A DNA stretch of 23,810 nt from a virus, in the IMG/VR virus record IMGVR_UViG_3300012920_000266, positions 1-23,810 of that record; one strand, 5' to 3'. A model generated the notes under the pieces. It searched no databases. It worked only from the letters and a program-made list of their open reading frames with translations, and had not been told where the DNA came from. A program made the translations under genes and the position numbers. Positions 3,193 to 7,285 of the stretch are shown here, one piece after another (positions within the stretch are counted from its first letter, which is position 1; the number at the start of each line of letters is the position of its first letter).

Positions 3193-3559
3193 ATTAAATC
3201 ATATACATTTTGAAATTATAGATAGAAATAAACATAGATTTCATATGAAAAAAAAGGAAAAGGAAAGATTTGATAAATTAAAACAGATAGGTTGTATAGC
3301 TTGTCAAAAAAAAGGTTTATTTACTGAAGCAGTAATTCATCACATTAGAAAATTTACAGGCATTGGTTTACGACCTAGTCATGATCAAACTATTCCTTTG
3401 TGTCCTCAACATCATAATATGGGTAACGAATCAATACATTTAAATAAAACAAAATTTCAAGAACTGTTCGGTACAGAACTTGATCTATTAGAAGAAGTAA
3501 ATCAACAAATCAACCAACTAGAAACAGGAGATATATTTTATGGAAAAGGAAATAAATAA
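3185..3559 (+). CDS. Ref-like HNH nuclease (RecA-dependent nuclease family)
   Basis: ATG at 3185 gives 124 residues. A TTG at 3149 is in frame but has no ribosome site, and the added residues look unlike the family. The core has CIAC (C37, C40), then IHHIR (H52, H53), RPSH (H66), PLCPQHH (C73, H76, H77) and H85. The order C-x2-C, HH-x-R, G.R.SH, PLC..HH is that of the RecA-dependent nuclease / phage P1 Ref family (PF16786-like): a zinc-structured HNH nuclease that in P1 cuts DNA within RecA-formed displacement loops. It lies with replication-type genes, so a recombination or replication role is likely. A general HNH endonuclease is the alternative. Its 3' end overlaps the next gene by 20 bases. 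Confidence 0.75.
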   Translation: MAELNHIHFEIIDRNKHRFHMKKKEKERFDKLKQIGCIACQKKGLFTEAVIHHIRKFTGIGLRPSHDQTIPLCPQHHNMGNESIHLNKTKFQELFGTELDLLEEVNQQINQLETGDIFYGKGNK

Positions 3560-4334
3560 ATTTCACGCATTACAGTTATTTACAGATACATTTGCGGCAG
3601 AAACAGTACATTTAACTAATAATAAGATAGGAATTTATATTAGATTATTATGTTTTGCTTGGACTAAAAATGCTAAGCCATTTACAACTGAATCAGCTTT
3701 TAGGATTTGTCAATGTACTACTAATGATTGTTATATTGACGTTTATGAAGTTTTAGAAGAATTTTTTAAAGTAGAACGTGAGTGTGATGACAGAAACAAA
3801 AAAACTTGGTATCACAAAAGATTATTGCAAGAACATGAATATTTAACTGATAAATATCAAAGAAAATCAAGAGCTGGTAAGAAAGGTGCAGAAGCAAGAT
3901 ATTCTGCTAATGGCAACATCATAGCACCTATACCTAGTCCTATACCTATACCTAATAATAAATATGATGTTTCTTTTGAAGAACTTTGGAAAGCATTACA
4001 CATTAGAAGAGGTTCTAAATTTAAAGCTTTTAAATTATGGCAAAAATTAAGCCCTGAACTACCTGAAGATAAAAAGCTTATAAACATCTATAATAGTCAA
4101 ATACATGGTATTGAGAAAAAATACGTTCCTCATTTTACAACTTGGTTATCTGAAAAAAGGTGGGAATCAGATCATAACGAATATGTTGAAATACCTAATT
4201 TGATTGAAAGACTTAAAAATTTAGGTTACACATACATTGGTAGTGAGGGTAATTTTGAGAAATTTAGTAAAGATGGCAAAAATTATAGGATTGATCGCTT
4301 TGATGAAAAGCACCATATACAGTTAGAACAGTGA
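3540..4334 (+). CDS. DUF1376-domain replication-type protein
   Basis: A 264-residue protein. Residues 5-120 match the DUF1376 pattern: a start like FHALQLFTDTFAAETVHLT, an arginine-containing helix (YIRLLCFAW), then a second helix ending in a W..KRL motif and SRAGKKGAEARY (about 110-121). Residues 129-138 are a proline linker (PIPSPIPIP). The C-terminal part (145-220) has the F.....K.AFKLWQKL and FTTWLSEKRW features found in phage replication-initiation or helicase-loader-type proteins. DUF1376 proteins usually sit with phage replication genes, as here. AGGAGA precedes the ATG. A direct origin-binding or helicase-loading role is inferred from the architecture, not shown. Confidence 0.7.
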   Translation: MEKEINKFHALQLFTDTFAAETVHLTNNKIGIYIRLLCFAWTKNAKPFTTESAFRICQCTTNDCYIDVYEVLEEFFKVERECDDRNKKTWYHKRLLQEHEYLTDKYQRKSRAGKKGAEARYSANGNIIAPIPSPIPIPNNKYDVSFEELWKALHIRRGSKFKAFKLWQKLSPELPEDKKLINIYNSQIHGIEKKYVPHFTTWLSEKRWESDHNEYVEIPNLIERLKNLGYTYIGSEGNFEKFSKDGKNYRIDRFDEKHHIQLEQ

Positions 4335-4600
4335 ATTATAAACCTATAATTGTAAATAAAAAAAAATATTATTTTTATCGTATAGAGTGGGTTGATATTT
4401 TTGGTTCTGCTGGTCATAGTGATTATGAAAGTTTAAGTAAAATGAAACCAGCAAATAAAGTTACTTATGCGTTTTTATTTAAAAAAGATAAGAACAATGT
4501 AAGAACTTTTAGTACATATGATCTAAATGAAGAAGAATTTTCAGATTGCAATGTATTTCCTGTAGGTGTAATAGTTTCAATGAAAAAATTAAATATATGA
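4331..4600 (+). CDS. Small phage protein of unknown function (89 aa, GTG start)
   Basis: The start is GTG at 4331, overlapping the previous TGA as GTGA. An ATG start is not available in the N-terminal part. The sequence runs KKYYFYRIEWVDIFGSAGHS, then MKPA, then a beta-rich segment and FPVGVIVSMKKL. This resembles a common small phage protein type (Y.I.W.DI.......L.....PA.....G.L......I.I.....I..VI..I..L) of unknown function. Its end overlaps the ATG of the ParB-like gene by four bases (ATGA). Confidence 0.6.
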   Translation: MNYKPIIVNKKKYYFYRIEWVDIFGSAGHSDYESLSKMKPANKVTYAFLFKKDKNNVRTFSTYDLNEEEFSDCNVFPVGVIVSMKKLNI

Positions 4601-5190
4601 AAATCGAAGAAATTAATCTAGATCAGATTATACCATATAAAAATAATCCTAGAGAAATATCAACTGAAGCTGTAGAAAAAGTTAAAAATTCTATATTAGA
4701 ATACGGAAATAATCAACCTATCGTTATAGATCAAAATAATGTTATAGTGGTCGGTCATACTCGATTTAAAGCACTTAAATCTTTAGGTAAAAAAACTGCT
4801 TATGTAGTAAAAAAAGATTTTGATAAAAATAAAGCTATTGCTTATCGTATAATGGACAACAGAAGTGGCGAGGAATCTAAATGGTCAAATAAATTACTGA
4901 AAGAAGAAATCAAATTATTAAGTGATGAAAAATTTAATTTAGATTTAACAGGGTTTGATACTTCAGAGATAGATTCAATGTTTTTTAAAGAAGAAACACT
5001 TGATACCGATATTGGTGGCGAAGAATTTACAGGTGCTATAAATGACGTAAAAATGATACAATTATTTTTTAATCCAAATAATGAAGAAGCTTTTAAAAAA
5101 GCAGTAGAACAAATATCGCAAAAACACAACATTGATAACATTAGTGATGCAGTTTTATTAGCAGTTAAAAATGAAGCAGATAATAGCTAA
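4597..5190 (+). CDS. ParB/sulfiredoxin-like domain protein of a DNA-modification cassette
   Basis: ATG at 4597 gives 197 residues. A TTG further upstream would add an unconvincing cysteine-rich tail. The N-terminal domain (1-115) has YKNNPR (14-19), QPIVID (40-45), VVGHTRFKALKSLG (51-64, with the GHTR box 53-56) and YRIMDNRSGEES (82-93). This is the ParB-N/Srx type found in phage modification operons, often placed next to or fused with DNA methylases. The C-terminal part (150-197, MIQLFFNPNNEEAF onward) resembles a tail I associate with such phage proteins. Here no methylase is attached, and the next two genes are a TET-family dioxygenase and a glycosyltransferase. A DNA-binding guide or nucleotide-dependent enzyme for base modification is inferred. 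Confidence 0.75.
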   Translation: MKIEEINLDQIIPYKNNPREISTEAVEKVKNSILEYGNNQPIVIDQNNVIVVGHTRFKALKSLGKKTAYVVKKDFDKNKAIAYRIMDNRSGEESKWSNKLLKEEIKLLSDEKFNLDLTGFDTSEIDSMFFKEETLDTDIGGEEFTGAINDVKMIQLFFNPNNEEAFKKAVEQISQKHNIDNISDAVLLAVKNEADNS

Positions 5191-6151
5191 AGAAGTTCTA
5201 GACCTAGATCAAATAAAAAAACTTGAGGGAACTTTTATAACTGAAAAACACATTGATCATTTAATAGAAGAAAATACTATCGTTACTAATAAAAGTGGCA
5301 AATTAATTGCTGTTTTAATTAAGAATGCTATTGATAAAAATATTTTAAATTCAAGTAGATCATCATTTAGAAAAGCTGGTAAACGTGGTTCTAATAATAG
5401 AGGCATGGCTTCTGGATTAATAAGTCAGTTTTACAAAGTAGGCGACAAGATAGGCGACAGAACTATAGGGAAGATTGATGGTACTAGATATACACCAATC
5501 AATATTAAAAATGGCAAATTATCAAAAACAAGTTACGCATTAACTGTAAACAGTAGTACAGTAGGATTTAGTGATAGATACCCAAGAATACCTTATTGCA
5601 GAACAACAGCTTTTAGTCAAAAACACTTAAAAGAATATAATTTAATGATACCTTATATAAAACAAATAGATAATCTTTATAAACAGTACGCACCATACAA
5701 TTATGATTTACAAAAAAAAGTTGCTGATGCGACAAGTCAAGATTTTGTTATTAAAGGCACAGCATTTACCACAGCTACAGTAAACAGAAATTATAGAACA
5801 GCATGTCATTATGATGCTGGAGATTTTAAACATGGGTTTGGTAATTTAGGTGTTTTATCTGTAGGCAATTATAAAGGAGCTTATACTGTGATTCCTAAGT
5901 TCGGCATAGGTTTGAATTTAAGAGATGGAGATGTAGCTTTATTTGATGTACATGAATTACATGGTAATACTGAAATAAAACAGATTGGATATTCTGAAAG
6001 GATTAGTGTAGTTTGTTATTATCGAGAAAAAATGATTTACTGTGGAAACTCAGAATATGAATTAAATCGTGCTAAACAAGGCACTAAAACAATATTTAAT
6101 GATGAAGAAAAAAAAAGGGCGAAAGAAATTTACGCAAAATTAAATGTTTAA
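5171..6151 (+). CDS. TET/JBP-family 2-oxoglutarate/Fe(II) DNA base dioxygenase (5mYOX type)
   Basis: A 326-residue protein. The double-stranded beta-helix core starts near residue 195 with AFTTATVNRNYRTACHYD. H213 and D215 form the HxD iron motif, H264 in HELHGN is the distal iron ligand, and R277 in ERISVVCYYREK is the 2-oxoglutarate-binding arginine. GFGNLGVL (222-229) and GAYTVIPKFG (236-245) are hallmarks of phage TET/JBP proteins, which oxidise the methyl group of a 5-methylpyrimidine in DNA (5-methylcytosine or thymine) to hydroxymethyl. The 190-residue N-terminal part includes a basic patch (65-77) and a conserved-looking CRTTAF segment. The gene overlaps the ParB-like gene by 20 bases and is followed by a glycosyltransferase, the typical arrangement for making glycosylated bases. 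The substrate base cannot be told from sequence. All catalytic residues are present. Confidence 0.9.
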   Translation: MKQIIAKEVLDLDQIKKLEGTFITEKHIDHLIEENTIVTNKSGKLIAVLIKNAIDKNILNSSRSSFRKAGKRGSNNRGMASGLISQFYKVGDKIGDRTIGKIDGTRYTPINIKNGKLSKTSYALTVNSSTVGFSDRYPRIPYCRTTAFSQKHLKEYNLMIPYIKQIDNLYKQYAPYNYDLQKKVADATSQDFVIKGTAFTTATVNRNYRTACHYDAGDFKHGFGNLGVLSVGNYKGAYTVIPKFGIGLNLRDGDVALFDVHELHGNTEIKQIGYSERISVVCYYREKMIYCGNSEYELNRAKQGTKTIFNDEEKKRAKEIYAKLNV

Positions 6152-6950
6152 TATGCATTATGCTATGGCAAATACAGTAATTGAAGAACCATTGATTTAC
6201 CCTATTTTAATACCAACTAAAAATAGACCTGAGGGTAAAAGTTTTAAATTATTACAAGATTTACCATGTCATAAATACATTATAGTTGAACCACAAGATT
6301 TTGAAAAATATATACATTTAAACGAAGACTATACAGTAATTAAAATGCCAGAAAACAACATGGGATTACCTTATGCTAGAAACTTTTTAAAAAAATTTGC
6401 AGAAAAAAAGTATGATTGGTGGTGGCAGATAGATGATGATATAAGTGGATTTTTTGAAACTAAAAATAGAAAAAACGTAAAAATATCGCCTGATAAAGCC
6501 CTCTACGAAGCCCAACAACTCTTTAAAAAGCTTCCTGTCGCTATAGGTAGCTTAGAATATCAACAATTTGCATGGTCACAAACTAAAGATTTTAAACTCA
6601 ACAGCTATGCTGATTGCGTTGTATGTTTTAACACAAAAAGGACAAAACCCTACTCTTACGACAATAATCAACAACTTAAACAAGATAGGGATATGGTGTT
6701 ACAAGTTTTAAGTGATGGTCAGTTTACAATGAGAACAAGTACAATATCATTCGGCGCACCAACTATGGGTACTAATAAAGGTGGGTTACAATCAGTCTAT
6801 AGAGCAGAAAAAGAAAAAACATCAGTAGAAAATTTAATCAAAAAATGGGGAAAAAACATAGTAACCATGCAGATTAAAGATCAAGCACAGGGTAAACGAT
6901 ATGATGCAAAAATTAATTGGAAAAGATTCAAAGTTAATATAAATGTTTAA
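6144..6950 (+). CDS. TET-associated glycosyltransferase (TAGT-like, GT-A fold)
   Basis: A 268-residue protein. YPILIPTKNRPEG (about 19-31) is the nucleotide-sugar-binding start of a GT-A fold, MGLPYARN (73-80) lies in the usual helix, and WWWQIDDD (92-99) supplies the metal-binding DxD motif (D97, D99). FGAPTMGTNKGG lies near the C-terminal active-site region. This matches the glycosyltransferases encoded next to phage TET/JBP dioxygenases, which are thought to add sugar to hydroxymethylated bases. It overlaps the dioxygenase gene by eight bases, so the two are likely co-translated. The start is uncertain: ATG at 6144, 6153 or 6165 are all in frame and none has a strong ribosome site. The sugar donor is unknown. 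Confidence 0.82.
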   Translation: MFNMHYAMANTVIEEPLIYPILIPTKNRPEGKSFKLLQDLPCHKYIIVEPQDFEKYIHLNEDYTVIKMPENNMGLPYARNFLKKFAEKKYDWWWQIDDDISGFFETKNRKNVKISPDKALYEAQQLFKKLPVAIGSLEYQQFAWSQTKDFKLNSYADCVVCFNTKRTKPYSYDNNQQLKQDRDMVLQVLSDGQFTMRTSTISFGAPTMGTNKGGLQSVYRAEKEKTSVENLIKKWGKNIVTMQIKDQAQGKRYDAKINWKRFKVNINV

Positions 6951-6952
6951 GT

Positions 6953-7285
6953 ATGGCAAGACCAATTAAAAAAGTAGATACACAAGCTATACAAAAATTA
7001 GCACAAATGCACTGCACATATGAAGAAATAGCAGAGTTTTTAGATGTTAGCACTAAGACTTTACAAAGGAATTATGTCCACCTTATAAAAAAGGGACGAG
7101 AGATGGGCAAAATAAGTTTAAGACGTGCACAGTTTGAAAAAGCGATAGGTGGTAATGTAGCTATGATGATATGGCTAGGGAAACAACATTTAGATCAAAG
7201 AGATAAAATTGAACAAACTAATTACAATGAACCACTACCACTTATAATTGAAGCTAAATCAGAAAATGGCAAAGAAAAAAGGTAA
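6953..7285 (+). CDS. terS: Terminase small subunit (HTH type)
   Basis: A 110-residue protein beginning MARPIKKVDTQAIQKLAQMH. Residues 17-45 form a helix-turn-helix (CTYEEIAEFLDVSTKTLQRN), followed by KISLRRAQFEKAIGGN and MMIWLGKQHLDQRDK (about 75-89). The order GRPxK, HTH with C.x.EIA..L.VS..TL.R, SLRR.QF..A..GN..M.IWLGKQ.L.Q is a common small-terminase pattern in siphoviruses. It binds the packaging site on the concatemer and recruits the large subunit. It is about 1.6 kb upstream of the large subunit, with several small genes between, rather than adjacent. Confidence 0.75.
   Translation: MARPIKKVDTQAIQKLAQMHCTYEEIAEFLDVSTKTLQRNYVHLIKKGREMGKISLRRAQFEKAIGGNVAMMIWLGKQHLDQRDKIEQTNYNEPLPLIIEAKSENGKEKR

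Follow-up and report, generated by a model that had tools for sequence, protein, structure and literature searches.

A ParB-TET/JBP-glycosyltransferase cassette in a likely pelagiphage fragment and its predicted role in thymine modification

The cassette and its genomic setting

The window, i.e., the whole stretch of DNA analysed here, is the IMG/VR record IMGVR_UViG_3300012920_000266, a fragment of 23,810 bases. Three co-directional overlapping genes at positions 4597-6950 form a cassette that encodes a ParB-N/Srx-type protein, a TET/JBP dioxygenase and a TET-associated glycosyltransferase (TAGT). The cassette and the genes that surround it are as follows:

3540..4334, + strand, DUF1376 / primosomal-type replication protein (PF07120, E 3e-10; phrog_9327, E 1.2e-18), left border of the variable slot
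4331..4600, + strand, small upstream gene, 89 aa, operon context (phrog_25889, E 9e-7)
4597..5190, + strand, ParB-N/Srx-type protein, 197 aa, first gene of the cassette (PF02195, E 3.8e-9; PHROG 620, E 1.7e-43)
5171..6151, + strand, TET/JBP Fe(II)/2-oxoglutarate dioxygenase, 326 aa, proposed thymine hydroxylase (PF12851, E 8e-25)
6144..6950, + strand, TAGT glycosyltransferase, GT-A type, 268 aa (PF20691, E 1e-18; PHROG 842, E 3e-28)
6953..7285, + strand, HTH protein, terminase-small-subunit-like, directly 3' of the cassette (phrog_309, terminase small subunit, E 4.6e-10), right border of the variable slot

The ParB-N gene begins with ATG at 4597 and its stop ends at 5190; an ATGA is common to its start and to the stop of the 89-aa gene upstream. 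It overlaps the TET gene by 20 nt, and the latter overlaps the glycosyltransferase gene by 8 nt. In addition to the match to the ParB_N profile, the protein carries a GxxR box, present as GHTRFKA. When coordinates and overlaps were checked, all three genes were found where the sequence-only reading had placed them, and the profile matches listed above agree with its assignments to the ParB-N/Srx type, the TET/JBP family and the DxD glycosyltransferases. Its suggestion of co-translation holds as well: in 94 related loci the ParB gene immediately precedes TET, and the commonest overlap among them is the same 20 nt, so that the arrangement appears as conserved and not as a product of chance. Scans for promoters and terminators near the cassette gave no more signals than shuffled sequence.

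The terminase (TerL) of the window shares 80% identity with its counterpart in Pelagibacter phage HTVC112P and 73-75% with those in HTVC202P, HTVC111P and HTVC026P, and most of the structural genes track the terminase in their likeness to HTVC112P. This closeness indicates that the window is most likely a fragment of a pelagiphage, a marine relative of the viruses that infect Pelagibacter, a bacterium abundant in the ocean; the full genome would be about 32 kb. Gene order in HTVC112P and in the window is alike, with ParB-TET at the matching slot, and the HTH protein at the right border is 80% identical in the two. The content of the slot in HTVC112P is ParB-TET-FkbM; its TET is 50% identical to that of the window, and an FkbM-type methyltransferase stands in place of the glycosyltransferase. 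In HTVC111P the slot holds a gene annotated as a putative DNA cytosine methyltransferase (locus L190, 5853-6470), for which a Pfam search gave no match, and in HTVC202P and HTVC026P it holds none of the three cassette genes.

The dioxygenase scored 87.4 bits against the PF12851 profile (cut-off 34.9). The metal ligands H213, D215 and H264 and the 2-oxoglutarate residue R277 do not vary across 22 aligned relatives, nor across 102 aligned TETs, in agreement with the earlier description of a complete enzyme. In sequence searches against solved structures the protein alone gave nothing relevant and the family profile reached TET2 only, weakly (E 4e-4), and therefore a comparison of folds was used. 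The best solved match to the AlphaFold2 model (pLDDT 93.0, pTM 0.89) was TET2-DNA (Z 20.7, rmsd 3.3, 255 aligned); NgTet1 from Naegleria (Z 18.7, rmsd 3.5, 225 aligned) and the fungal CcTet with N6-methyladenine DNA (Z 17.2, rmsd 3.5, 236 aligned) were also matched, and the first non-TET row had Z 13.6. As modelled, the dioxygenase has the TET fold. We also sought the JBP architecture, in which a J-binding or SNF2 domain stands beside the hydroxylase, and found only the Tet_JBP domain in the 326-aa protein.

The glycosyltransferase matched PF20691, 'TET-Associated Glycosyltransferase', with 68.5 bits (cut-off 27.5), and its acidic DDD motif, D97-D98-D99, is invariant in 25 relatives. A sequence search of this protein against solved structures gave no match. 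Its model, of moderate confidence (pLDDT 73), is GT-A-like, with WrtF (Z 13.1, rmsd 3.5, 200 aligned) and SpsA (Z 12.7, rmsd 3.6, 191 aligned) among its matches.

Two phage TET lineages

Contigs were gathered by TET sequence patterns, and the comparison covers two among the phage TET lineages, of which others occur, e.g., in mycobacteriophages. In the TET tree a long branch, supported at 100/100, separates the lineage of the window from a second one, whose contigs were retrieved with the TET from Melnitz, a phage of Methylophilales. Systems of the second kind correspond to the type in which Burke et al. (2021) reportedly observed phage TET activity on 5-methylcytosine made by a co-encoded C5-methyltransferase. 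They resemble the window in placing a TET/JBP dioxygenase within a cluster of phage modification genes, and some of their loci share TAGT, which was found in 8 of 47 contigs. We had considered TAGT as an indicator of the modified base, but dropped it, since the family occurs in both TET lineages and the glycosyltransferase itself thus does not name the base.

The two lineages differ in what accompanies TET. In the Melnitz-type lineage a C5-cytosine methyltransferase (PF00145) adjoins TET in 46 of 47 contigs, and in the sole contig that lacks it TET lies 28 bases from the contig end. The enzyme is present in Melnitz itself, which makes 47 of 48 records for this lineage. In contrast, the PF00145 search found it in 0 of 88 records of the window lineage (34 + 50 + 4, the last four being Cr30, DLP6, S-CBWM1 and C48C1), while control genomes were positive in every such search. 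Six of the 88 are complete genomes, namely HTVC112P, P12024L, Cr30, DLP6, S-CBWM1 and C48C1, and the hosts behind them include Pelagibacter, Nonlabens/Persicivirga, Caulobacter, Stenotrophomonas and Synechococcus. A co-encoded C5-methyltransferase was accordingly found neither within the 23.8-kb fragment nor in the complete HTVC112P.

The pocket residues differ between the lineages as well. R285 aligns with TET2 H1904, which we take to be a base-contacting residue; the position is Arg in 102 of 102 window-lineage TETs, whereas Asp (32) or Gly (3) is found there in the C5-methyltransferase lineage. Likewise, N266 of the window lineage stands against Val, and T203 against Ser. Among the members of the wider lineage without a C5-methyltransferase is the TET of Stenotrophomonas phage DLP6 (KU682439; locus L036, 5443-6789), a phage distantly related to that of the window, whose DNA is listed as restriction-resistant (PMC8228603).

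Exchangeable modules behind the ParB-TET core

Downstream of the constant ParB-TET core, 31 loci carry TAGT, 14 an FkbM methyltransferase and 40 ADDT. When members of the ADDT group were searched against PF18724 ('Amino acid:DNA transferase'), 22 of the 27 tested matched, with a best E of 1e-21; the profile of the group found no relative among solved structures. ADDT modules are often accompanied by a class-II glutamine amidotransferase, a GNAT protein, an amidoligase-like protein or a P-loop kinase. TET in the window is followed by TAGT and not by ADDT, and a search of the 48 records from the C5-methyltransferase lineage found no ADDT. The relatives of ADDT in cultured phages belong mainly to large ViI-like phages of Salmonella, Erwinia, Serratia and Dickeya. 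A glycosylated base, which the sequence-only reading had offered as a strong prediction, is a reasonable one, but ParB-TET is followed by any of several exchangeable modules, the glycosyltransferase being just one.

On the TET tree the replacement of glycosyltransferase by ADDT or the reverse occurred 11 times, counting ADDT alone, and at least 10 of these events are forced by well-supported branches. The exchange is seen between TETs up to 87% identical. TETs this alike most likely make the same product even where their modules are exchanged, and such exchange is expected if both modules use it. The smallest well-supported mixed set around the window contains 24 ADDT and 14 glycosyltransferase rows. 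The nearest differently decorated relatives of the window (L043, L045 and L046) carry the P-loop kinase only, so that the ADDT link to the window comes from the wider 45-row clade.

For the modified thymines of phages ViI, M6 and phiW-14, 5-hydroxymethyluracil (hmU) is thought to be the common intermediate, followed by a kinase and amine transferases acting in DNA (PMC6449724). That ADDT acts only on derivatives of hmU is a premise drawn from published work. If ADDT needs hmU, TET makes hmU, and hmU is also what the glycosyltransferase of the window would receive. ADDT in the window lineage could, however, have changed its base.

Three further components of these modules were recorded. The P-loop kinase (L039, 7557-8090; L043, 4641-5177) matches PHROG 800, which is labelled terminase small subunit, and accompanies TETs of both lineages; it may phosphorylate hydroxymethyl bases in general. 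It was rejected as evidence for hmU alongside ADDT, because it has relatives in C5-methyltransferase phages, Melnitz being one. A family of about 246 aa, which in one module type separates TET from ADDT (L016, 2859-3596, and 16 further loci) and has no Pfam or PHROG match, is probably an unrecognised modification enzyme. The FkbM-type methyltransferase (L033, 8497-9195, and 13 further loci) follows TET in HTVC112P and its relatives, or in four loci joins the glycosyltransferase; either the hydroxymethyl group or the sugar may be what it methylates.

The candidate base and alternative readings

Trypanosomes oxidise thymine and add a sugar, which gives base J. We regard the window cassette as probably a phage counterpart of this system, i.e., a post-replicative thymine-modification cassette leading from thymine to hmU and on to glycosyl-hmU. 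From the gene context we infer that the TET/JBP dioxygenase would act after replication, hydroxylating thymine in the phage DNA at its methyl group to yield hmU, perhaps with help from the ParB-like protein, which would scan DNA and be translated from the same transcript. We propose that TAGT would then attach a sugar to the hydroxyl of hmU in DNA; the resulting glycosyl-hmU, similar to base J, would probably shield the DNA from host restriction. The sequence-only reading had foreseen hydroxylation of a 5-methylpyrimidine and subsequent glycosylation; this class of pathway is retained, while the base, which it had left open, is one for which the data point to thymine. The proposed route is the same as in the kinetoplastid pathway of JBP1/JBP2 and the J glucosyltransferase, where thymine in DNA becomes hmU and glycosyl-hmU, but the TET of the window is a single-domain protein of 326 aa with no other recognised domain, and its glycosyltransferase is a TAGT.

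In M6-like phages a thymidylate-synthase homologue supplies hydroxymethyl-dUMP, and the same has been proposed for HTVC023P-type pelagiphages (PMC9599517). A homologue of this kind (PF00303) is absent from the window and its relatives, only Cr30 being over the cut-off, which makes it unlikely that hmU comes from the nucleotide pool. The proposed route would thus share the hmU intermediate with M6, ViI, phiW-14 and the HTVC023P type, and relatives of the window carry ADDT; unlike in those phages, hmU would arise in DNA by post-replicative action of TET, and compared with the ViI/M6 type a glycosyltransferase stands in place of ADDT. In a wider form, the ParB-paired TET/JBP lineage would be a portable thymine hydroxylase that hands hmU to exchangeable glycosyltransferase, FkbM or ADDT modules, with base-J-like glycosyl-hmU in the window phage; for this broader proposal we judge the chances to be even.

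To our knowledge, the phage TETs tested and shown active so far, including those reportedly studied by Burke et al. (2021), all act on 5-methylcytosine. The TET of the window might accordingly oxidise 5-methylcytosine supplied by a host methyltransferase, or by one encoded in the unsequenced part of the genome, the window being a 23.8-kb fragment, and TAGT would then glycosylate 5-hydroxymethylcytosine. Both the enzyme superfamily and the TAGT family are common to C5-methyltransferase phages, and glucosyl-hydroxymethylcytosine is the presumed substrate of the T6-type TAGT (PMC13390438). We nevertheless find a cytosine substrate unlikely. The lack of C5-methyltransferase throughout the window lineage extends to complete genomes from unrelated hosts and is set against its near-constant presence in the other lineage, and the TAGT modules are exchanged with ADDT modules. 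Reliance on the methylation pattern of each host would, moreover, restrict the modification to few host motifs.

Some fungal TETs act on N6-methyladenine, and the fold comparison of the dioxygenase matched the CcTet structure with such DNA. Still, we judge it very improbable that the substrate is an N-methylated base, such as N6-methyladenine and N4-methylcytosine, or some unusual base, since an N4/N6 methyltransferase was found in only one of 40 records searched, that of P12024L, where it is next to TET-TAGT, and since ordinary thymine would require no methyltransferase. It is likewise improbable that the cassette is inactive or directed at something other than phage DNA, such as RNA, or a surface glycan by way of the glycosyltransferase. 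The solved folds closest to the glycosyltransferase model, which is of moderate confidence, are indeed carbohydrate and peptide enzymes, but the reading frames are intact, the catalytic residues are all invariant, and the overlap with the ParB gene is conserved across the 94 loci; furthermore, the TAGT family is defined by its link to TET, and the solved structures that the dioxygenase model matches best are DNA-bound TETs.

Cassettes of this kind are already known. Iyer et al. (2013) are said to have predicted phage TET-glycosyltransferase systems computationally and to have discussed the specificity of phage TETs, and part of the thymine assignment may have been predicted there. Three points appear to be new: that the two TET lineages contrast in this way, that glycosyltransferase and ADDT modules replace one another behind a single ParB-TET core, and that base-J-like phage DNA is predicted. 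Thymine modification by the window cassette, if true, would give the first phage counterpart of base J known to us. If TET/JBP enzymes originated in phages, as has been proposed, a tested phage counterpart is missing for the JBP branch, which oxidises thymine, and the window lineage offers a concrete candidate. A further implication is that hypermodified thymine could be reached by a second route, in which DNA itself is oxidised in place of a modified nucleotide pool; the lineage may also yield thymine-specific oxidases and sugar transferases acting on DNA that labelling and sequencing methods could use. The candidate lineage is present in the cultured phages HTVC112P and P12024L.

The TET/JBP genes of HTVC112P (L033, 7599-8507), Cr30 (L035, 5410-6738), DLP6 (locus and coordinates as given above) and S-CBWM1 (L037, 3729-5165) are annotated as 'SNF2 DNA repair protein', in HTVC112P also as 'DnaJ chaperone'. 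Such labels hide these TETs from surveys based on annotation.
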